DNA from: Fulvivirga maritima
Lineage (GTDB): Bacteria > Bacteroidota > Bacteroidia > Cytophagales > Cyclobacteriaceae
Direction: 5' to 3'
Length of the DNA: 64,000 nt
Assembly: GCF_021389955.1 (NCBI RefSeq)
Contig: NZ_CP089980.1
Location: 4,211,001 to 4,275,000 of the forward strand
Of this stretch, positions 21,641 to 36,713 are shown piece after piece. The translations under genes were made by a program, and so were the position numbers. Below the pieces are notes generated by a model that was not told where the DNA came from, did no database searches, and saw only the letters and a program-made list of their open reading frames with translations. Every line of letters begins with the position of its first letter. Within the stretch, counting starts at the first letter, position 1.

Positions 21641-22960
21641 ATGAAAAAGATGAGAGCAAATGCTGCAGGCATAGATATAGGAGCCAAGCACATTTTCGTA
21701 TCCGTGGAAAACAAGGATGTTCGTGTTTTTGAGACTTTCACTGAAAGTTTTAAAGAGGCATCGTGTTATTTATTATCAGAGGGGATCGAGACAGTGGCCA
21801 TGGAAGCCACCGGCGTTTACTGGATCATCCTTTATGAGATCCTAGAATCAGCAGGTTTAGATGTCTGGTTAGTAGATGGGCGCCAGACAAGACAAGTACC
21901 AGGTCGAAAGACTGATGTAAAGGACTGTCAATGGATTCAGCAACTTCATAGTCATGGCTTATTGAATCGCTGTTTTGTTCCCGATGCACAAGTGAAGGAA
22001 GTTCGTGCTTACCAGCGGTTGCGAGAAGATCATCTCAGAACAGCCTCTATGCATGTAAACCACATGCAAAAGGCGCTAATAGAGATGAACATCCGGCTCA
22101 AAGAAGTGCTCAGTCAGATACATGGCGCCAGTGGTCTGGCGATCATAGAAGCCATCCTGGCAGGGGAACGTGATGCCCAAAAGCTCTTATCCCTGTGCCA
22201 TAGCAGTATTAGAGAAAAGAAAGCCTCTCAAGTCATCAAGGCACTTTCAGGCTATTATACCGAGTCAGGGTTATTTGCTTTGGGACAGGCATACAGTGGT
22301 TACAAATTTTATAAACAACAAATACTGGCATGTGACCAAAAACTGGAAGAAGTCATGAAGCGGTTCAATAACTACGATTCAGATATGGAAAGCAAAAATG
22401 AAATAGATTCTGTTAAAGATCGAAAACCTGTTAGACATAATAAACCTGATATAGACCACTTAGGAGGACACCTGCTGAAAATCTTTTCAGGCAAAGATGC
22501 TACGTGTTTGCCGGGTATTACCGATTATACCTGGCTACAATTGTATTCTGAAATAGGCATGGAACTTTGTAAGTGGCCCAGTGAGAAACATTTCACTTCA
22601 TGGCTAGGATTATCTCCAGGTCAACACCAGTCTGGCAAGAAAAATAAAACCAGAAACAGAAAGTACAGGCCAAAGGCAGGACAAATATTCAGACAAATAG
22701 CCCAAAGTTTAATAGAAAGCAAAAAGATAGCACTGGGAGCTTTTGGGCGTAGATTGAAAAGCAAAAGAGGTCCAGGCATAGCCACTAAAGCTACCGCCCG
22801 AAAACTGGCCGTACTCTACTGGCGGCTTATGGTAAAAGGGCTTGATTATACAGAACGGGGCATCAAAGCATATGAAGAAAAAATGCAGCTCCATAGAGAA
22901 AGATGGCTAGTAAAAACAGCTAAAGAATTAGGTTATGAGCTTGAACAAATACCTATTTAG
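21641..22960 (+). CDS. IS110 family transposase (DEDD recombinase), copy A
   Basis: 439 residues. The N-terminal DEDD (RuvC-like) domain starts AAGIDIGAKHIFVSVENKD (first Asp), then VAMEATGVYWIILYEIL (Glu) and PGRKTDVKDCQWIQQL (Asp pair). The C-terminal transposase_20 domain includes LPGITDYTWLQLYSEIGME and LGLSPGQHQSGKKNK, holding the conserved Ser/Gly region used for strand exchange. This copy is intact and could be active in cis and for copy B. Confidence 0.93.
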   Translation: MKKMRANAAGIDIGAKHIFVSVENKDVRVFETFTESFKEASCYLLSEGIETVAMEATGVYWIILYEILESAGLDVWLVDGRQTRQVPGRKTDVKDCQWIQQLHSHGLLNRCFVPDAQVKEVRAYQRLREDHLRTASMHVNHMQKALIEMNIRLKEVLSQIHGASGLAIIEAILAGERDAQKLLSLCHSSIREKKASQVIKALSGYYTESGLFALGQAYSGYKFYKQQILACDQKLEEVMKRFNNYDSDMESKNEIDSVKDRKPVRHNKPDIDHLGGHLLKIFSGKDATCLPGITDYTWLQLYSEIGMELCKWPSEKHFTSWLGLSPGQHQSGKKNKTRNRKYRPKAGQIFRQIAQSLIESKKIALGAFGRRLKSKRGPGIATKATARKLAVLYWRLMVKGLDYTERGIKAYEEKMQLHRERWLVKTAKELGYELEQIPI

Positions 22961-22979
22961 TGTATTACGTCATTGGTAG

Positions 22980-23290
22980 GCCAAAGGCAGGACAAATATT
23001 CAGACAAATAGCCCAAAGTTTAATAGAAAGCAAAAAGATAGCACTGGGAGCTTTTGGGCGTAGATTGAAAAGCAAAAGAGGTCCAGGCATAGCCACTAAA
23101 GCTACCGCCCGAAAACTGGCCGTACTCTACTGGCGGCTTATGGTAAAAGGGCTTGATTATACAGAACGGGGCATCAAAGCATATGAAGAAAAAATGCAGC
23201 TCCATAGAGAAAGATGGCTAGTAAAAACAGCTAAAGAATTAGGTTATGAGCTTGAACAAATACCTATTTAGTGTATTACGTCATTGGTAG
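22980..23290 (+). repeat. 311-bp tandem duplication of the IS110-A right end
   Basis: Bases 22669-22979 (end of the transposase gene plus the element terminus) are repeated directly after the first copy. An open frame of about 103 residues inside (22960-23271) repeats the transposase C terminus and is not a separate gene. The duplication junction joins the terminal GGTAG to an internal GCC that itself follows an AG, copying the layout of a real target site. Confidence 0.9.
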
Positions 23291-23374
23291 GTTCTCGAAG
23301 GATAGACTTTCTACTGGACCTGCTACATTTGATTGGACAGTAAGTTAAGCGCTTTTGAGTTAAATTTACTAAAT

Positions 23375-26142: not shown

Positions 26143-27712
26143 ACCTAACATTTGTTTCAACCGCACAAAAAGAAATGACGTTAAGAATAGAAGTGGCCTG
26201 TACAATATAGCCGAACCTGGCATAGTGCAATTTGCCTGTCCCTGAGCATGGTTGGATAGAAAGGAGTCACAAAGTATGGTACTTCCTTGTTTTTATAGGA
26301 ATGTCCGATTGGTAGTCTGTCGTGTACAATATTTCATCCTACAGGTCTTTGTTTAACTTTTAGAATATTAGTCATGAAAAAGATGAGAGCAAATGCTGCA
26401 GGCATAGATATAGGAGCCAAGCACATTTTCGTATCCGTGGAAAACAAGGATGTTCGTGTTTTTGAGACTTTCACTGAAAGTTTTAAAGAGGCATCGTGTT
26501 ATTTATTATCAGAGGGGATCGAGACAGTGGCCATGGAAGCCACCGGCGTTTACTGGATCATCCTTTATGAGATCCTAGAATCAGCAGGTTTAGATGTCTG
26601 GTTAGTAGATGGGCGCCAGACAAGACAAGTACCAGGTCGAAAGACTGATGTAAAGGACTGTCAATGGATTCAGCAACTTCATAGTCATGGCTTATTGAAT
26701 CGCTGTTTTGTTCCCGATGCACAAGTGAAGGAAGTTCGTGCTTACCAGCGGTTGCGAGAAGATCATCTCAGAACAGCCTCTATGCATGTAAACCACATGC
26801 AAAAGGCGCTAATAGAGATGAACATCCGGCTCAAAGAAGTGCTCAGTCAGATACATGGCGCCAGTGGTCTGGCGATCATAGAAGCCATCCTGGCAGGGGA
26901 ACGTGATGCCCAAAAGCTCTTATCCCTGTGCCATAGCAGTATTAGAGAAAAGAAAGCCTCTCAAGTCATCAAGGCACTTTCAGGCTATTATACCGAGTCA
27001 GGGTTATTTGCTTTGGGACAGGCATACGGTGGTTACAAATTTTATAAACAACAAATACTGGCATGTGACCAAAAACTGGAAGAAGTCATGAAGCGGTTCA
27101 ATAACTACGATTCAGATATGGAAAGCAAAAATGAAATAGATTCTGTCAAAGATCGAAAACCTGTTAGACATAATAAACCTGATATAGACCACTTAGGAGG
27201 ACACCTGCTCAAAATCTTTTCAGGCAAAGATGCTACGTGTTTACCGGGTATTACCGATTATACCTGGCTACAATTGTATTCTGAAATAGGCATGGAACTT
27301 TGTAAGTGGCCCAGCGAGAAACACTTCACTTCATGGCTAGGATTATCTCCAGGTCAACACCAGTCTGGCAAGAAAAATAAAACCAGAAACAGAAAGTACA
27401 GGCCAAAGGCAGGACAAATATTCAGACAAATAGCCTAAAGTTTAATAGAAAGCAAAAAGATAGCACTGGGAGCTTTTGGGCGTAGATTGAAAAGCAAAAG
27501 AGGTCCAGGCATAGCCACTAAAGCTACCGCCCGAAAACTGGCCGTACTCTACTGGCGGCTTATGGTAAAAGGGCTTGATTACACAGAACGGGGCATCAAA
27601 GCATATGAAGAAAAAATGCAGCTCCATAGGGAAAGATGGCTAGTAAAAACAGCTAAAGAATTAGGTTATGAGCTTGAACAAATACCTATTTAGTGTATTA
27701 CGTCATTGGTAG
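26143..27712 (+). mobile_element. IS110-family element, copy B
   Basis: 1570 bp, the same length and orientation as copy A, with an identical left end and about 99 percent identity by eye in the gene. Inserted at the same AG core in the third repeat unit. The left junction is CATCCTGAG/ACCTAAC, the right CATTGGTAG/GCCCTCG. The candidate bridge RNA region corresponds to 26144-26373. Confidence 0.88.
26374..27693 (+). pseudogene. IS110 transposase, copy B, interrupted by a stop codon
   Basis: Compared with copy A, CAA became TAA at 27436-27438, ending the protein after IFRQIA at residue 354; the remaining 85 codons (to 27693) stay in frame but untranslated. The DEDD domain and the PGITDYTW/SGKK region are upstream of the stop and intact, but the basic C-terminal tail is lost. 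There is also a Ser-to-Gly change at residue 228 and several silent changes, so copy B may depend on copy A for movement. Confidence 0.9.
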
Positions 27713-27852: not shown

Positions 27853-28272
27853 ATGAAAAATAGTTTCGTAGGGGTTCACTGGGATTTTTTGGGGTTTAGT
27901 GCTTCATTTTTATGTGTGATACACTGCTTGGCTTTGCCTATAATTCTTAGCCTATCGCCTTGGGTGGGCTGGCAGGTGATGCATGATCCCGGCATTGAGC
28001 TTACAATTCTTGTTGTTAGCCTTGTAATAGCTGCTTTTGCGTTGTTTCATGGCTATAGAAATCATCATGGCAATTTCAAACCGATAATAATTGCTTTTGC
28101 TGGCTTTTTATTCATTTTGGTTGGTCATGCCTTTTTTCATGATCATGAAGTGTTCATCACCGCTCCGGGGGCCATTTTGGTGGCTATTGCTCATGTGCTC
28201 AACTGGTATTACGAACGAAATGAAGTGAAGCCAACGCATAGTTCGAAGCAAAATAAATTACACAATAAATGA
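27853..28272 (+). CDS. MerC domain-containing membrane protein
   Basis: 139 residues from ATG 27853 ([14 protein letters not shown]), preferred over an upstream in-frame start at 27784 that would lie inside the operator. Four membrane helices; helix 1 carries [13 protein letters not shown], the paired cysteines typical of MerC-family proteins, which move mercury or other thiophilic metals across the inner membrane. The C terminus is His-rich ([17 protein letters not shown]). It overlaps the COG0523 GTPase gene by 4 bp (ATGA), so the operon probably handles zinc rather than mercury; no mer genes are present. Confidence 0.85.
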
Positions 28273-29468
28273 TAAAGGCCAATAAAATACCAGTAACTGT
28301 GCTGAGCGGTTTTCTGGGAGCAGGAAAAACCACTTTGCTCAACCATATTTTGCATAACCGTGAGGGATTAAGAGTAGCAGTAATTGTAAATGATATGAGT
28401 GAGCTCAATGTAGACAGTCAGCTGGTGCAAAATGAAGTGAAGCTTTCAAGAACGGATGAAAAGCTAGTAGAAATGAGCAATGGCTGTATCTGTTGTACAC
28501 TGCGGGAAGACCTGATGGTGGAGGTAGAGAAGCTTGCCAAAATGAAAAAATTCGATTACCTGCTAATAGAGAGTACCGGTATATCAGAACCTATACCTGT
28601 GGCTCAAACTTTTTCTTTTGCTACGGGTGATGAGCTGTATGATCTTACCAAATTTAGCCGGTTAGATACCATGGTTACGGTAGTAGATGCTTTTAACTTT
28701 TTGAATGATTTTGGAAGTGCAGATACGATTGTAGACAGAGAAATGACTGATGATGCACAGGATCAGCGCTCTGTAGTGAACCTGCTCACTGATCAGATAG
28801 AGTTTGCTAATGTTATTTTACTTAATAAAACAGACTTAGTAGAGCCAGATGAGCTGAAACTCTTAGAAGGGATGATTAAGAAGCTAAATCCTGAAGCCCG
28901 ACTCTTACGAACCAGTTATGGTAAGGTGCCACTGTCAGAAATTATTAATACTAAGCTTTTTGATTATGAAAAGGCAGAGCAATCTGCAGGCTGGATAAAA
29001 GAATTGAATAATGAGCATACCCCTGAAACAGAAGAATACGGCATATCTTCTTTTGTATTTAGGGCTTCAGAGCCTTTTCATCCGGAGCGGTTCCTGGCAT
29101 TTGTTAATAAAAACTGGCCTGGAAACATTATTCGTAGTAAAGGCCTCTTTTGGTTGGCCTCCCGACCTGACCACGCCCTTCTGTGGAGCCAGGCGGGAGG
29201 TTCTTTAAAAGCTGAGCTCTATGGCCGCTGGTGGGCTTCGGTACCCTTGAAACAAAGGGCTATGAATCCTGCGTACATGGAAAATCAGGAGGTCATTATG
29301 GCTAAGTGGGATAAACAATGGGGAGATAGGATGAATGAGCTGGTAATTATAGGTCAGGATTTAGATGAGCAAGCCATTTCAGCCCAACTATCTAAATGCC
29401 TGATTAATGACCATGATCAGCAATCCGTAAAGGAAGGCAAGCAGTTAGTAGACCAATGGCCACTGTGA
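28269..29468 (+). CDS. COG0523 family GTPase (CobW/ZNG1-type zinc metallochaperone)
   Basis: 399 residues. Walker A is [15 protein letters not shown], the metal-binding CxCC motif is [13 protein letters not shown], Walker B is [11 protein letters not shown], and the base-recognition motif is [10 protein letters not shown]. The C-terminal CobW_C domain starts around residue 255 ([19 protein letters not shown]). Such GTPases deliver zinc to client enzymes under metal limitation and are often Zur-regulated, which fits the operator upstream. Translationally coupled to the MerC-like protein. Confidence 0.92.
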
Positions 29469-29574: not shown

Positions 29575-31743
29575 ATGAAAACTATTGCACTTAACCGATT
29601 AAACCTGATGACCATGCCTAGAGGTAACGGCTGGTCGCCTAAGCAAAAGTTGGTATTTACTGCCGAGTTAGCAAAAATGGGATACAGGCTATCTAATCCG
29701 GCTATGCTGGATGAAGCGGGAGCAGGTTTTCTATTAGATTATAAGCATCTTATTACCGCGCTGAAGCAAAAGAAAGGTGGAAACGTTGCTTACGTTCCTT
29801 TATTTAAAGGATTTCCTAATAATGTGCCTGATGATGCTATTTATTTCTTTAAAAGAGTTTTTGGCTATTTAGGTAATGTGTTAGACTTGTTTCAGTCTGG
29901 AGAAAAGTTAGAAAATGGTATGGTTATACCTCAATCACTTTTTAATCTGGATGACTTTGGGGCAGATCCGGTTACGCAGATGCAGACTAAGGCACTTTAT
30001 GAAAAGTCGCTTGCAGCCAACGCCTGGAAAAAAGGCGATTCCCATACTGAGTGGATAGAGCTTAAAATCATTTTTGACGATGAACTTGAAGCCAGATTAG
30101 AGGCTTATTTGCAATCATTATTGTATGCTAAGTCTTCCATAAAGCAGGAGTTACACGCTGATCTCATAACACTAATAGAGTATTTTGGAATTGATTCCAT
30201 AGATTCGCGTCAGGTGGTCTTTAAAGAGACTAAGGCCTTTTTGTTAAAATATTTATGGGAGCAAGAGCAGTACGCAGCTATTGGTAAAATGGTAAATAAT
30301 GCCGTAGATGTATTGAGAATGTTCGCAGCACTTACTGATACTGATGTGAGCCTGGCTGATAAGGTGAAGTTTCCTAAGCTATCCAGAAAGCAACGTAAGG
30401 AAGTGCTGGCTATGCTGGAAAAAAGTGCAGGATTGGCCGAAGCCTTCAAAAAATACAAAGGTTTATGGTTAGAAATAGGGCGGTATTTGCACCCTGGTGA
30501 ATATAGCAGACAGTTTCCGCTAACGGCTAAAGCTTTTGATGCTTTGCGCAATGGTAAATTAGAAACTTTTGCGTCTAAAACAGAGGCCTTATTACTATCA
30601 GACCAAGTGGAGGAGCTGTTACAGCATTTGGGAGAGAAACCTGGTGTGTTTGGAAGAAAAGTGCACGAAATTTTAAGGAGATTTCCTAAGTCTACTTTTG
30701 AAATAGTAGAGGCTTTTACACAAATAGTTCCTAAAATGGAGCTGAAGAATTTGCTGGTGTTGAGGGATTATTTTAACACTATTAATGATGCAGAAAAAAG
30801 AGTAGTAGTGAATAAGAAGGGCAAAATAAAAGTGTTGGATAACAATGCCTTTATGGAATTAGATGCCAAGCAAACAGGAGCTGTGATTGAAGCCATAGAT
30901 AATGGTATAGCGGAGAAGGTAATTACTAAGGAGTCTTGGGAAAATAAAAAAGTATGGATAGATCCTGAATTAATGAACTATACCGTGCCTTTGCAGCAAA
31001 GAAAAGCTTCTGATGGAATCATCACCGTAGGTAGAGGGAGTAGGATAGGAGCAGATTTCACGAAAGTGATGAGACTCTTTGTGTATTGGAAAGAGGCCGG
31101 TATGCGTACTGACCTGGATCTTTCTGTAGCTCAGTATGATGCCGCTTGGAACTATCTGGGGCATGTGAGCTATACCAACCTAAAAGGGGCAGGTATAGTG
31201 CACTCTGGCGATATACAATCAGCTCCTTACGGTGCTGCGGAGTTTGTAGATATTACCTTGCAGCATTTGTCTGCTAAGGTGAAATATCTTGCCCCTCAGG
31301 TATACCGCTATGCAGGCAATACCTTTGCAGATATGGATTGCCATGCGGGCTGGATGTGTAGACATGAAACCAATGGAGATGTGAAAACTTTTGATATAAA
31401 AACAGTGGTCAATAAGTTCGATCTTAATGGTGCCGGAGCTTATGCAGTGCCTTTTGTGGTAGACATAGATAATGAGGAAATAGTGATGACTGACCTCTTT
31501 GTGGGAGGTAAAGATTTGCATAACAATATAGAAGGCGCAAAAACCAATGTGGCTTTATTATGTAGTGAGGTATGCAAATTCACTAATACTAAGCCTGATA
31601 TGTATACGTTGGCCTGCTTAAATGCAGAATATCGTGGTGCCGAAATGGTTGGTGAGCCAGAAATGGCTGATGTAACCTTCGGAGTGAAAGACTGTACCTA
31701 TAATGCAGATGATGTAGAAAAGGTATTGTCAGAGTTAATATAA
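29575..31743 (+). CDS. Helical-repeat protein with C-terminal TerD-like domain (MXAN_6230/SCO0854-like)
   Basis: 722 residues, cytoplasmic. Residues 1-440 are mostly alpha-helical, HEAT-like, with the marker KGLWLEIGRYLHPGEYSRQFP and repeated ...VEELLQHLGEKPGVFGRKVHEILRRFP, a pattern I recognise from the MXAN_6230/SCO0854 group. Residues about 500-690 form a TerD-like beta domain: DLDLSVAQYDAAWNYLGHVSY, AGIVHSGDIQSAPYGAAEFV, which contains the HSGD motif of TerD proteins. I see no RING finger. The gene has a plausible AAAGGAA ribosome site and its own operator. The RNA array begins at its stop codon, so the protein is a candidate partner of those RNAs. Molecular role unknown. Confidence 0.75.
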   Translation: MKTIALNRLNLMTMPRGNGWSPKQKLVFTAELAKMGYRLSNPAMLDEAGAGFLLDYKHLITALKQKKGGNVAYVPLFKGFPNNVPDDAIYFFKRVFGYLGNVLDLFQSGEKLENGMVIPQSLFNLDDFGADPVTQMQTKALYEKSLAANAWKKGDSHTEWIELKIIFDDELEARLEAYLQSLLYAKSSIKQELHADLITLIEYFGIDSIDSRQVVFKETKAFLLKYLWEQEQYAAIGKMVNNAVDVLRMFAALTDTDVSLADKVKFPKLSRKQRKEVLAMLEKSAGLAEAFKKYKGLWLEIGRYLHPGEYSRQFPLTAKAFDALRNGKLETFASKTEALLLSDQVEELLQHLGEKPGVFGRKVHEILRRFPKSTFEIVEAFTQIVPKMELKNLLVLRDYFNTINDAEKRVVVNKKGKIKVLDNNAFMELDAKQTGAVIEAIDNGIAEKVITKESWENKKVWIDPELMNYTVPLQQRKASDGIITVGRGSRIGADFTKVMRLFVYWKEAGMRTDLDLSVAQYDAAWNYLGHVSYTNLKGAGIVHSGDIQSAPYGAAEFVDITLQHLSAKVKYLAPQVYRYAGNTFADMDCHAGWMCRHETNGDVKTFDIKTVVNKFDLNGAGAYAVPFVVDIDNEEIVMTDLFVGGKDLHNNIEGAKTNVALLCSEVCKFTNTKPDMYTLACLNAEYRGAEMVGEPEMADVTFGVKDCTYNADDVEKVLSELI

Positions 31744-31909
31744 AATTATTCGTGGACTAGTTATTACTTCCTTCTAAACTCCAATCATAGTAATAACGCT
31801 TACCATGAAATTATAAGCGGATTAGAGTGCTCTTCCTTCTAATTTATTGGTAAAAATAGAGCACTCGCTTACCGCAAAATATAAACAGGACTAAAGGTCA
31901 TTTCCTTCT

Positions 31910-31988
31910 TACGGGGAACTGAGGGGCGGTGGTTCGAGTCCACCCTTTGCCTGGCGAAGTAGCTCAGCTGGTAGAGCATCAGGTTATA
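31910..31988 (+). tRNA. Circularly permuted tRNA-like sequence (payload of array unit 3)
   Basis: Order is 3' half, then 5' half. 3' half: ACTGA (31918-31922), variable loop GGGGC, T-stem GGTGG, loop TTCGAGT, CCACC, acceptor strand CTTTGCC (31945-31951), then a single T. 5' half: acceptor strand GGCGAAG (31953-31959), TA, D-stem GCTC, loop AGCTGGTA, GAGC, A, TCAGG TT. The acceptor strands pair over 7 bp with one G-U. Anticodon-stem strands TCAG/CTGA pair, with one G-A mismatch at the fifth position. No CCA is encoded. If 32-33 come from the 5' half and the rest from the 3' half, the loop would read TTGGGGA (anticodon GGG), but the join is unknown, so identity is not assigned. It could be a decoy or structural mimic rather than a translating tRNA. 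Confidence 0.75.
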
Positions 31989-32039
31989 ATGGCCTTGCTT
32001 ACCTGTTCATAAAAAGGCCTAAGGCAGCTGTTTCCTTCT

Positions 32040-32079
32040 ATTTGCAGGTTCGATTCCTGCCTCGAAATTGGTCACTATA
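32040..32079 (+). ncRNA. T-arm-only tRNA fragment (payload of array unit 4)
   Basis: It contains a perfect T-arm, GCAGG TTCGATT CCTGC (32044-32060), followed by CTCGAAA. No matching TTTCGAG 5' acceptor strand and no D-arm follow; the payload ends TTGGTCACTATA. It is either a decayed permuted tRNA or a deliberate minihelix. Confidence 0.6.
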
Positions 32080-32100
32080 ACAGCTGTCATTTCCTTTTTT

Positions 32101-32298
32101 TATGAATTATAAGTCGCATAAAAGGCGAATGACATATAGGCTGGTAATTACGAGGAAAGAAGTAATAAGGGAGTTGGGAAATGCTAGTCTGTAGAAGAAA
32201 GCTCAACATTGCCACAATTCACTCATAATAATCATGCTGGTAGATAATCATGAAATTGGCAGTTTAGCTTTAAAATAGAGATATTAGTGCTATTGCAA
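32101..32298. other. Intergenic DNA after the RNA array
   Basis: Starts with GAATTATAAGTCG (32104-32116), which resembles the lead of an array unit, followed by a small hairpin (CGC...GCG), but no TTCCTTCT or paired strands. The rest shows nothing I can name apart from the presumed promoter of the next Crp/Fnr gene. Confidence 0.4.
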
Positions 32299-33615: not shown

Positions 33616-33661
33616 ACAGAAAAAGGCATTTATTTCATATGATTATCCTTACCTTTGAAAC

Positions 33662-33736
33662 GGCTTTGGGGGTATTCTATAAAGAATTGAGAGAGTCCCT
33701 TTGAACCTGATTCGGTTAGTACCGGCGTAGGGAAAA
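33662..33736 (+). promoter_or_regulatory. TPP riboswitch (THI element)
   Basis: The diagnostic 3' part reads CCCTTTGAACCTGATTCGG, then TTAGTACCGGCGTAGGGAA; the P1/P2 5' strand is GGCTTTGGGGGT. It lies about 70 bp upstream of thiM. Thiamine pyrophosphate binding would reduce expression of the thiM-thiE-thiD-tenA operon. Confidence 0.95.
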
Positions 33737-33805
33737 GTTATTTTTATTTCTTCTTATTCTAGAGGAATTCATCCTTCAGCCATTTATGAAAAGTAAAATA
33801 CTTAA

Positions 33806-34612
33806 ATGATGAAAGATCTCCTTTGGAAAAATATCACACTACTTAAGCAACAATCACCTCTCGTTCATAGCATTACTAATTATGTGGTAATGAACAATAC
33901 GGCCAACGCGTTATTAGCCGCAGGAGCCTCGCCTATTATGGCTCATGCTCATGCCGAAATGGAAGATATGATGAAGATCTGCCAGGCATTGGTGGTTAAC
34001 ATAGGCACGTTAGATGAATACTGGGTTACCTCCATGAAAAAAGCGGCCCAGCAGGCCAACCAGCTGCAAAAATCCTGGGTGCTTGATCCTGTAGGAGCAG
34101 GAGCCACCCCGTATAGAGATGAAGTCTTGGCTGAGTTACTACAAATGAAACCGACCATTATTCGAGGAAATGCTTCAGAAATTATGGCACTGGCCAAACA
34201 TAACACTACCATCACTAAAGGGGTAGATAGCTCTGCTGAAAGTAATGAGGCGGTGGCTACGGCTAAGTTTTTAGTAGATAATTATCAAACCACAGTATGT
34301 ATTTCCGGTGAAACGGATATTATTCTTAACCACGAAAAGGAGATTCATCTTGCTAATGGTAATGCGCTTATGGCCAAAATTACTGGCATGGGTTGCTCTG
34401 CTACTGCTCTGGTGGCGGCTTTTTCAGCAGTAATTGAAGATAAGGCTGAGGCTGTAACTTCTGCCATGGCTTTATTGGGCGTAGCTGGAGAGCTAGCTAC
34501 CAAAGAAAGTAAAGGACCCGGAAGTTTACAGCTCAACATTTTAGATAAGCTATATAACATCACAGAAGCAGAATTTACTTCCACTTTAAAGATAGAGGTG
34601 CAGCGTGGCTAG
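33806..34612 (+). CDS. thiM: Hydroxyethylthiazole kinase
   Basis: 268 residues (a second Met follows at 33809). ThiM signatures: SPLVHSITNYVVMNNTANALLAAGASPIMAHA near the N terminus, VLDPVGAGATPYR, IRGNASEIMALA, and the phosphate/anion-hole region ITGMGCSATALVAAF. It phosphorylates 4-methyl-5-hydroxyethylthiazole for thiamine salvage. First gene of the riboswitch-controlled operon; its stop overlaps thiE by 8 bp. Confidence 0.96.
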   Translation: MMKDLLWKNITLLKQQSPLVHSITNYVVMNNTANALLAAGASPIMAHAHAEMEDMMKICQALVVNIGTLDEYWVTSMKKAAQQANQLQKSWVLDPVGAGATPYRDEVLAELLQMKPTIIRGNASEIMALAKHNTTITKGVDSSAESNEAVATAKFLVDNYQTTVCISGETDIILNHEKEIHLANGNALMAKITGMGCSATALVAAFSAVIEDKAEAVTSAMALLGVAGELATKESKGPGSLQLNILDKLYNITEAEFTSTLKIEVQRG

Positions 34613-35237
34613 TTCATTTCCTTATAAATTATATCTGGTCATTTCTGAGGAAGCCTGTTTACATGATCACTTTTTGAAGGTTGCCGAGCAAGCAGTAAAA
34701 GGTGGGGTAGATGTGGTACAGCTTCGGGAGAAAAACGCTTCAACAGAAGAATTTCTGCGTAAAGCATTTTGGCTAAAAGAAGTCTTAGACCGGTATGAAG
34801 TGCCTCTCATTATTAATGATAACTTGGAGGTAGCCAAGCAGGTGGAGGCGTATGGCATTCACGTAGGAACATCAGATGCGCCACCTACCGAAATCCGTGA
34901 AAAATGGGAGCAGGTACACTGCTTAGGTTATTCTGTAGAGGTCTTAGATCAGCTGGAATCCTTAGAGACGCAGGCTGCCGATTACCTGGGAGTAAGTCCT
35001 GTATTTAAAACGAATACTAAAACGGATACCATAATTGAATGGGGCTTATCTGGCATTCGTACCATTCGTTCTATGACCGATAAACCACTTGTGGCCATCG
35101 GAAATATGAATGCAGAAAACGCCGGGGAAGTGATTAAGGCAGGAGCCGATTGTATTGCGGTAGTTTCAGCTATTTGCGCAGCTAAAGACCCGACAAAAGC
35201 GGCTGAACAATTAAGAAACGAAATTGAGAAATCATGA
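34605..35237 (+). CDS. thiE: Thiamine phosphate synthase
   Basis: 210 residues, TIM barrel. Motifs: GGVDVVQLREKNAS, VPLIINDNLEVAKQVEAYGIHVG, YLGVSPVFKTNTKTD and KPLVAIGNMNAENAGEVIKAGADCIAVVSAI. It joins HMP-PP and the thiazole phosphate to give thiamine phosphate. The usual Gxxx... HVGxxD motif reads HVGTSDAP. Overlaps thiM (8 bp) and thiD (4 bp), so all are co-translated. Confidence 0.95.
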   Translation: MASSFPYKLYLVISEEACLHDHFLKVAEQAVKGGVDVVQLREKNASTEEFLRKAFWLKEVLDRYEVPLIINDNLEVAKQVEAYGIHVGTSDAPPTEIREKWEQVHCLGYSVEVLDQLESLETQAADYLGVSPVFKTNTKTDTIIEWGLSGIRTIRSMTDKPLVAIGNMNAENAGEVIKAGADCIAVVSAICAAKDPTKAAEQLRNEIEKS

Positions 35238-36073
35238 ACTCTAAAAAATATACATACCCTTCAGTGCTCACTATAGCCGGCTTTGATGGCAGCGGCGGCG
35301 CCGGTATTCAAGCAGATATGAAAACCATTTCTGCGTTGGGCTGCTTTGCTACTTCTGCGTTAACTGCTTTGCCGGTTCAAAACACACTTGGCGTTAAATC
35401 TATATTCAGTATTCCTGAAGAGGTGGTAGGCCAGCAAATAGAAACCATTACAGAAGATATTTTTCCTGATGCAGTTAAAATTGGGATGGTGCATACTTCA
35501 GCATTGGTGAAAATAATAGTGGATCAGCTAAGCCATTATGCTGATCTGCCTGTAGTTTTTGATCCTGTAATGGTGGCTACCAGTGGTCACAAATTAATTG
35601 AAGATGAGACTATACAAAGCCTTGTTAAAAATTTGTTTCCTATAGCGAATGTAGTAACGCCCAATCTTGATGAAGCTGCCATTTTAGCCGATATGAAGAT
35701 TGAAACGGTGGAAGAAATGAAAGTGGCGGGCAGAAAAATCATGGAACTGGGTTGTCAGTCAGTATTATTGAAAGGAGGACATTTAAAGACGGAAAAGCTC
35801 ACTTCGCTCTATTTTTTACCAGACGGAAGTATAGAAAGTTTCGAATTCCCAAAGTATGAAACCAATAATACTCACGGTTCGGGCTGTACGCTTTCATCGG
35901 CCATTGCCTCTTATTTGGCACAAGGCAAATCTTTGTTAGAGGCCGTCAGCTTAGGGCAAGAATACATTCATAATGCCATTTATCATGGAAAAGATGTGGC
36001 GATAGGCAAAGGCAATGGACCGGTAAATCACTTTTTTAATCCTCAAAAACTCATAAAAAATGAAATGGACTGA
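35234..36073 (+). CDS. thiD: Hydroxymethylpyrimidine/phosphomethylpyrimidine kinase
   Basis: 279 residues, ribokinase fold. N terminus VLTIAGFDGSGGAGIQADMKTISALGCF, central VVFDPVMVATSGHKLI, VTPNLDEAAIL, and C-terminal NTHGSGCTLSSAIAS anion-hole motif. It phosphorylates HMP twice. The usual AGSD opening is AGFD here, a minor variation. Overlaps tenA by 14 bp. Confidence 0.95.
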   Translation: MNSKKYTYPSVLTIAGFDGSGGAGIQADMKTISALGCFATSALTALPVQNTLGVKSIFSIPEEVVGQQIETITEDIFPDAVKIGMVHTSALVKIIVDQLSHYADLPVVFDPVMVATSGHKLIEDETIQSLVKNLFPIANVVTPNLDEAAILADMKIETVEEMKVAGRKIMELGCQSVLLKGGHLKTEKLTSLYFLPDGSIESFEFPKYETNNTHGSGCTLSSAIASYLAQGKSLLEAVSLGQEYIHNAIYHGKDVAIGKGNGPVNHFFNPQKLIKNEMD

Positions 36074-36713
36074 TAAAACCTGGAAATCGATAGAACCCAT
36101 TTACCAAAAGATTATTGAAATGCCTTTTATTAAGGAGCTCCAAAACGGAACGCTTCCTTTAGAAAAATTTCAATTTTATATGGGCCAAGATTCGTTCTAT
36201 CTGGAAAATTTTGCTAGAAGCCTGGCTTTAATCTCTGCAAGGGCGGAGCGTGTAGATCATGCCCTTGATTTTATTCGTTTTGCTGAAGGAGCTATAGTGG
36301 TAGAAAAAGCTCTGCACGATTCTTATTTTCAAGAATATGGATTGGAGAATCGTGGCCAGATAGAGCCCACCACCCATCATTATATAAATTTCTTGAAAAG
36401 TTCATCCGCTTTAGATCAGGTGGAAGTAGCCATGGCTGCCGTTTTGCCCTGCTTTTGGATTTATCAGGAAGTGGGTAACTATATTTATAAAAATCAACTA
36501 GCTAAAGAAAACCCTTATCAGAAATGGATTGATACCTATGCAGGTGAAGAATTTGAAGTATTAGTGATTAAGGCAAAGGAAATATGTGATGCTGTGGCTG
36601 AAAACTGCACTGAAGCACAGCAACAAAAGATGACAGAAGCTTTTATTGCAGCCAGCAGATTAGAGTTTATGTTCTGGAATAGTGCTTACCAACTCCATAG
36701 TTGGGAGGTTTAA
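36060..36713 (+). CDS. tenA: Thiaminase II/TenA family aminopyrimidine aminohydrolase
   Basis: 217 residues, all-helical. FQFYMGQDSFYLENFARSLALISARA and TTHHYINFL near the middle, then VAMAAVLPCFWIYQEVGNYI with the active-site Cys-type motif, and IDTYAGEEFEVLV. It salvages degraded thiamine by hydrolysing aminopyrimidine to HMP. Fourth gene of the operon; a hairpin terminator lies downstream. Confidence 0.94.
   Translation: MKWTDKTWKSIEPIYQKIIEMPFIKELQNGTLPLEKFQFYMGQDSFYLENFARSLALISARAERVDHALDFIRFAEGAIVVEKALHDSYFQEYGLENRGQIEPTTHHYINFLKSSSALDQVEVAMAAVLPCFWIYQEVGNYIYKNQLAKENPYQKWIDTYAGEEFEVLVIKAKEICDAVAENCTEAQQQKMTEAFIAASRLEFMFWNSAYQLHSWEV

Follow-up and report, generated by a model that had tools for sequence, protein, structure and literature searches.

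A single protein family, Ro60/Rsr, is known as the partner of bacterial Y RNAs, and in YrlA the basal stem holds Rsr while the transfer RNA (tRNA)-like domain holds PNPase, as summarised in a review (PMC8394870). A bacterial Y RNA is described as superposing on tRNA through circular permutation (PMC11472068). In phages, RNAs transcribed at a high level close to an Rsr-like gene of a Listeria phage could, according to one account, be Y RNAs (PMC12282133), and a Ro60-related protein has been noted in a jumbo phage (PMC7765460). In a 64,000-nucleotide (nt) stretch of the Fulvivirga maritima genome (contig NZ_CP089980.1, positions 4,211,001 to 4,275,000; hereafter the window, in whose own numbering coordinates are given), four RNA units lie at 31749-32106 on the forward strand, immediately 3' of the stop codon (TAA, 31741-31743) of a gene for a protein of 722 amino acids (aa). 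We regard the array and this protein as a variant of the Ro60/Y-RNA kind, outside YrlA and TROVE as now defined. It is likely, with a probability of about 0.72, that the 722-aa protein uses the four units as interchangeable scaffold RNAs of the Y-RNA type, in a Ro60-like particle of RNA quality control or repair. It looks like an overlooked second Ro60/Y-RNA particle because similar arrays adjoin related genes in phages and in bacteria that are only distantly related.

Each unit joins a variable head to a constant docking handle that compensatory change has preserved. With YrlA (Rfam RF02553) and its partner Rsr/Ro60 (TROVE and vWA domains) the system shares a basal stem with an internal loop, a permuted T-acceptor-D module, an RNA gene adjoining the gene of the partner protein and, in some loci, RNA-repair neighbours. 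It differs in the handle sequence, which is unmodelled in Rfam, in having several tandem units with unlike heads, and in a protein that neither Pfam, NCBIfam nor hhalign assigns to TROVE and in which TerD replaces vWA. The likeness to Y RNAs in general extends to two covarying helices around the internal loop of the basal stem, with 13 of 15 pairs changed on both sides and two invariant, but the window array does not stand beside a TROVE/Ro60 gene and its neighbour is non-TROVE by sequence.

The order within a unit is a lower stem of variable sequence ending in GG, an NYTA loop, a strand S, the box TTCCTTCT, a payload ending in ATA, the strand S', a 3' loop, and CC with the partner of the lower stem. 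The original prediction, made from the letters alone, had described strands S and S' that differ in every unit yet pair within it (8, 8, 8 and 9 base pairs), payloads of 14 to 79 nt always ending in ATA before S', and an array that begins at the stop codon of the preceding gene and ends in a T7 tract (32095-32101), and all of this holds. Of its fixed boxes, TTCCTTCT is exact in all four units (starts 31768, 31833, 31902 and 32032), but an exact GCTTACC is confined to units 1-3, with ATTTCC in its place in unit 4; the 3' loop of the handle is accordingly GCTTA in units 1-3 and ATTT in unit 4 (consensus NNTTN). For the handle in general the internal loop reads GG-AYTA/NNTTN-CC, and the variable upper stem S/S' has 7-8 bp. 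The 'lead' consensus forms the 5' strand of an additional, outer helix (…GG/CC…), whose sequence varies between units, yet pairs within every one of them.

Unit 1 (31749..31809; all units on the forward strand) has its lower stem at 31749-31755/31803-31809, an ACTA loop at 31756-31759, S at 31760-31767, TTCCTTCT at 31768-31775, a payload of 14 nt at 31776-31789, S' at 31790-31797 and GCTTA at 31798-31802. The corresponding parts of unit 2 (31817..31875) are the lower stem GCGG 31817-31820/CCGC 31872-31875, S 31825-31832, TTCCTTCT 31833-31840, payload 31841-31858 (18 nt), S' 31859-31866 and GCTTA 31867-31871, and in both units S/S' pairs at 8/8. Unit 3 (31884..32007) comprises the lower stem AACAGG 31884-31889/CCTGTT 32002-32007, S 31894-31901, TTCCTTCT 31902-31909, a tRNA-like payload of 79 nt at 31910-31988, S' 31989-31996 and GCTTA 31997-32001, with 8/8 S/S' pairs including one G-U, or 9 counting the next pair. 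Unit 4 (32006..32106) has S at 32023-32031, TTCCTTCT at 32032-32039, a payload of 40 nt at 32040-32079 with a T-arm-like hairpin at 32044-32060, and S' at 32080-32088 (nine pairs, one G-U); its lower stem, ending in GG 32016-32017/CC 32093-32094, leads into the T7 tract, a terminator-like end. Units 1, 2 and 4 were delimited by sequence, pairing and fold, unit 3 by sequence and pairing.

The array is real, and its helices are under selection and kept by compensatory change. Compared with 200 shuffles each, units 1, 2 and 4 folded better than every shuffle (z = -4.48, -4.62 and -4.53), and the fold of unit 3 alone was not above chance (z = -0.81; 41/200 shuffles as good). A box rule yielded 31 units from ten loci (the window, L011, L012, L014-L019 and L004), with S/S' paired at 8/8 in 23 and at 7/8 in eight; units visible by eye in L015, L016, L018 and L019 that fail the rule are not among them. 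Foreign-S, shuffle and slide controls were used because S' had been chosen for its pairing, and exclusion of the near-copy L011 from the foreign-S control and the covariation left 27 non-redundant units from nine loci. In 25 of these, the unit's own S paired at 7/8 or better with a site touching the 3' box, against 5.8% of 702 trials with foreign S; the box is the discriminating criterion, since 42% of foreign-S trials reach such pairing by itself.

The gapless covariation alignment held 24 of the 27 units (window unit 4 with its 2-nt offset, and L018+672 and L004+91, each with a misplaced S', were excluded). Its paired cells amounted to 90.6%, compared with 57.6% in shuffles (0/500 as high) and 41.9-48.1% when the alignment was slid, and the covariation score was 0.912 against 0.235 in shuffles. 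Change on both sides was found in all eight S/S' pairs and in five of seven lower-stem pairs, the remaining two being the invariant GG/CC, themselves a selection filter, and the count of 13 pairs with double change does not stand out, as 136/500 shuffles equalled it. Among the outer lower pairs, which were unused in choosing units, columns 10/48 paired in 24/24 units (A-U, C-G, U-A) and columns 9/49 in 23/24, and at the outermost pair the figure drops to 11/24. The fold z values, the foreign-S control and the covariation of 24 units confirm the structured array with selected helices that had been proposed; homologous arrays elsewhere and S/S' covariation, the absence of which had been named beforehand as speaking against it, were both found.

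Unit 3 carries as its head a tRNA mimic in circularly permuted order, like that of bacterial YrlA. Its module (31919..31982, forward strand; placed by Rfam match, pairing audit and coordinates) consists of a T arm (31928-31944, 5/5 pairs), an acceptor CTTTGCC 31945-31951/GGCGAAG 31953-31959 (7/7 pairs, closed by a 1-nt loop, T) and a D arm (31962-31977), and CTGA 31919-31922 can pair with TCAG 31979-31982 as a four-pair remnant of an anticodon stem leading into S/S'. The Rfam YrlA model matches 31920-31981 (E 8.1e-08, model positions 23-85 of 114) at 41.4 bits, under its gathering cut-off of 69 bits. The head of unit 4 has a T arm only (5/5 pairs, no D arm within 75 nt), and the heads of units 1 and 2 are without a tRNA part. 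An Rfam tRNA match at 31958-32062 (29.4 bits) spans the D arm of unit 3 and the T arm of unit 4. The permuted tRNA mimic of unit 3 and the T arm of unit 4 place the array with bacterial Y RNAs; the payloads are not arbitrary, a point that the original prediction missed. Its word 'undescribed' is right for the handle within the limits of Rfam, where scans gave only YrlA, tRNA, transfer-messenger RNA (tmRNA) and chance-level matches, but not for the architecture, which resembles that of bacterial Y RNAs. T-acceptor-D modules of changing sequence, with 5-7 of 7 acceptor pairs, were also found in L011, L012, L015, L018, L019, the viral contig L047 and the phage locus L062 (a second, self-overlapping row of L018 was left uncounted).

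Loci with TROVE itself served as a control. PF05731 (TROVE) occurs in 8/58 related genomes and not in the window genome, and analogous units lie downstream in 8/8 TROVE loci, one in L037 and more in the others, with the pattern GYCGTA-S-TTACTTC/ATACTTC … S'-…TTGCC. These units match the window handle in having a box immediately after S and in the arrangement of their loops, though the 5' loop differs. The same type of permuted module was found in five of the eight (L037, L039, L040, L041 and L044), and YrlA matches of 22.7-46.4 bits, against the cut-off of 69, in six (L037, L039-L042 and L044). Own S and the 3' box went together in 19/25 TROVE units, and in 139/574 (24%) with foreign S, a weak control.

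Across several phyla, and also in phages, arrays of this design adjoin genes for proteins of this family. Among close homologues of the 722-aa protein (45-94% identity by piece), the array follows the gene in 10/10 with downstream sequence, with a variant box TTCCTGCT in L004; outside the ten stand L013, which ends 7 nt past the gene, and L009, a 117-aa gene fragment (genome G029) with one TTCCTTCT unit after it. The array-bearing close homologues include Fulvivirga, Aureispira, Saprospiraceae, Chitinophagales, Planctomycetota and Kofleriaceae (Myxococcota). Clusters of the handle (at least two matches within 500 bases) were found in only seven of the 58 related genomes, all with the gene: G000 (the window genome), G006 and G013 of the window type and G026, G039, G049 and G055 of a type whose protein carries a RING domain. 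Two more gene-matching genomes lacked an exact cluster, G016 with the variant box and G029 with the gene fragment and its one unit. Only clusters were counted because single matches to the 5' handle patterns, scattered in 45/58 and 37/58 genomes with reversed-pattern controls similar in number, are background.

In the RING-type homologues a related array stands upstream of the gene in 14/15 (L005-L008 and L020-L029, the last ten from one genus), and L059 has no array. The boxes here are GGTCAA-N7-TTACTTC and ATTACC/ATTATC, and own S with the 3' box was found in 51/55 units, a count for which the control is weak because foreign S succeeds so often (1229/2836). Some RING-type units have the tRNA ends outermost and the handle inside the anticodon arm. 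End-to-end Rfam tRNA matches of 109-205 nt (38.7-58.7 bits) occur in 7/11 loci scanned, at eight places in five RING-type loci and at two in a third protein type (L030 and L032). The largest array among the loci examined, L006:100-1345, lies upstream and holds eight GGTCAA-N7 units by the script rule and three long tRNA matches. The third type (L030-L032; 594-596 aa in L030 and L032) has no significant Pfam family and shares the TerD-like C-terminus by hhalign; upstream of its genes, hairpins with a GTTCCTATA box and split tRNA-like elements are visible by eye, and it is probably another branch of the same theme.

Arrays were seen by eye in 4/4 viral contigs (L045-L048, weakest in L045). When viral contigs were searched with the RING-type alignment, no relative emerged. 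By tblastn, 13 phage and 31 plasmid records were found, and nine of these 44 were fetched. By eye, eight of the nine bear units with the boxes (Weasels2, XacN1, LpeD, RcXuper, Variovorax, Vibrio, Streptomyces and Niallia), and SCTP-2 is without units. With the box rule applied to phages, plasmids and three viral contigs, 17/29 units reached 7/8, Vibrio and Niallia giving 8/8 twice each; Streptomyces had no passing unit, and the one in Variovorax, which lies 121 nt away, is probably due to chance.

The 722-aa protein (gene 29575..31743, forward strand) has a helical-repeat region at residues ~165-455 and a C-terminal TerD-like domain at ~490-665, and its sequence relates it, as a protein without the RING, to the MXAN_6230/SCO0854 family (NCBIfam NF041916). 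It is homologous to that family over nearly its whole length by hhalign (probability 99.8, E 2e-30), and arrays stand at the RING-type loci also, but the window branch is without the RING cysteines of L005/L006 in the alignment and scores 328.9 bits, under the curated cut-off of 600; the RING-type proteins scanned, L020 and L006, also fall short of that cut-off. TROVE membership by sequence was rejected, with no match to PF05731 or TROVE profiles by Pfam, NCBIfam or hhalign. TerD, suggested to recognise nucleotide derivatives (PMC7159879), sits where Ro60 has vWA, and the protein is without a C-terminal vWA. The full-length AlphaFold model is poor (pLDDT 63) and residues 1-470 are better (77). 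With the predicted model, Foldseek against PDB gave no match at E 0.001 or better; a fold search in BFVD gave four phage proteins first, at least one of them a relative, followed by a phage TROVE protein at E 6.6e-3 and the next match at 0.16.

RNA-repair genes adjoin some of these loci. In Fulvivirga sp. M361 (L012), genes for an RNase_T exonuclease and an RtcB ligase lie downstream of the array, and in Variovorax the gene is divergent from a four-gene cluster whose last gene is rtcR; the sequence TGGCACGGGCATTGCA at 2803 there, 72 nt upstream of the gene start at 2875, we take to be a sigma54-type site. RlaP is within 1.5 kb of the gene in phages XacN1 and RcXuper and adjoins it in L030, and an RNase_T gene adjoins in L032. 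The neighbours of L015, L017 and L018 were scanned and showed no RNA-repair family. In the window the 722-aa gene is accompanied by genes for a ZigA-like GTPase, a Crp-type regulator and a flavodoxin-fold protein and by no RNA-repair gene. The arrangement of protein, tRNA-mimic RNAs and RtcB in L012, and RtcR beside the gene in Variovorax, resembles the Salmonella rsr-yrlBA-rtcBA operon as presented in PMC7790460, but no TROVE protein was seen in these two loci, and in the window genome RtcB is distant (~2.60 Mb, against 4.24 Mb for the array; G000:C1).

A candidate ribonucleoprotein of the array with the adjoining TerD-like helical-repeat protein, as the original prediction supposed, remains the best guess. 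By analogy with Ro60/Rsr on the basal stem of Y RNA, the helical-repeat part of the 722-aa protein would bind the handle, and the heads may gate the protein or tether partners such as tRNA-recognising enzymes, a ring exonuclease like PNPase, or an RNA ligase. Swapping of RNAs could then give one protein several particles and several jobs, with TerD as a putative regulatory domain. The neighbours in some loci and the Rsr-YrlA analogy suggest a role in the response to RNA damage, or in RNA quality control or repair. We lean, if only slightly, towards the wider reading that TerD-tailed helical-repeat proteins (MXAN_6230/SCO0854 and RING-less kin) form a second, ancient Ro-type lineage, each with an array of interchangeable Y-type RNAs that share one handle under different heads and carry the tRNA mimic in both permutations, with the handle outside in the window and, in the RING type, the tRNA ends outside and the handle in the anticodon arm.

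The tRNA-like heads could also be read in other ways. Permuted or intron-bearing tRNA genes, with the units as precursors that are cleaved and then ligated to functional tRNAs, for instance by RtcB, would agree with the RING-type order (5' tRNA half - S' - ATTACC - GGTCAA - S - TTACTTC - 3' tRNA half), with the end-to-end tRNA matches at ten places and with RtcB beside the array in L012. However, a proper anticodon arm is missing, window unit 3 keeping only TCAG/CTGA, ARAGORN finds 0 tRNA genes in the window, two of its four units have no tRNA part, and the conserved part is the handle, which makes functional tRNAs very unlikely. The heads might instead be bait in an array that acts as a decoy or antitoxin towards anticodon nucleases or other effectors that cleave tRNA, with the handle tying the bait to the protein. 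The mimicry itself, the RNA-repair neighbours of some loci and the carriage by phages speak for this, as does a statement that YrlA possibly inhibits an anticodon nuclease competitively (Hughes et al. 2020, PMC7790460), but the usual target, an anticodon loop, is absent from the heads, and the short heads have no tRNA part, and we regard a decoy as rather unlikely.

That the array begins at the stop codon, ends in a T7 terminator-like stem and adjoins the gene in nearly all loci examined would also be expected of a cis-acting element in the mRNA of the 722-aa gene, bound by the protein for feedback or 3'-end stability with no separate RNA. Yet its position changes, upstream of the gene in the RING type and in some phages and downstream elsewhere, and feedback needs neither tRNA-mimic heads nor several unlike units; we regard a cis element as quite unlikely. 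In agreement with the original prediction, no riboswitch, ribozyme or CRISPR family was found by Rfam or a CRISPR repeat test: the only riboswitch match is an unrelated thiamine pyrophosphate (TPP) one at 33658-33750, and a CRISPR array was rejected because the repeat copies are too unlike (68-73% similarity to the reference, and variable stems that pair). The cleavage it proposed at TTCCTTCT or GCTTACC, as in a processing array, found no support because both boxes lie in the handle loops.

For the Y-RNA-type scaffold and its TerD-tailed protein, the loci suggest that a parallel particle exists in no fewer than five phyla (Bacteroidota, Planctomycetota, Myxococcota, Pseudomonadota and Bacillota) as well as in several phages, Pseudomonadota and Bacillota being counted by the well-paired units in Vibrio and Niallia. 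The array RNAs are missing from Rfam and from the annotations seen. Among the matches listed, literature on MXAN_6230/SCO0854 gave nothing on an RNA partner, and none described Y-type RNAs together with TerD or SCO0854 proteins, though the review by Sim et al. and Chen et al. 2014 might mention them. The functionally blank SCO0854/TerD proteins would thereby gain a testable job as RNA-bound scaffolds, and natural arrays with one handle and many heads offer a ready library for asking what Y RNA heads do.

Some further features were observed near the genes of this family and elsewhere in the window. The ZigA-like GTPase gene (28269-29468; 575.9 bits, cut-off 600) lies directly upstream of the 722-aa gene, and in Fulvivirga sediminis a 399-aa open reading frame (ORF; L011:3694-4890), equal in length to the GTPase, precedes the gene. 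In the Rhodobacter phage RcXuper a match to permuted/alphaproteobacterial tmRNA (L065:1737-2153, 106-108 bits) lies just 5' of the Y-RNA-like units. The TPP riboswitch of the window scores 74.1 bits, and the genes after it (33806-36713) are, as we presume from their translations, ThiM/ThiE/ThiD. A perfect 311-nt tandem duplication (22667-23291, 100% match) lies in a transposase-rich stretch and by eye resembles the end of a transposase-like ORF at 26374-27438.

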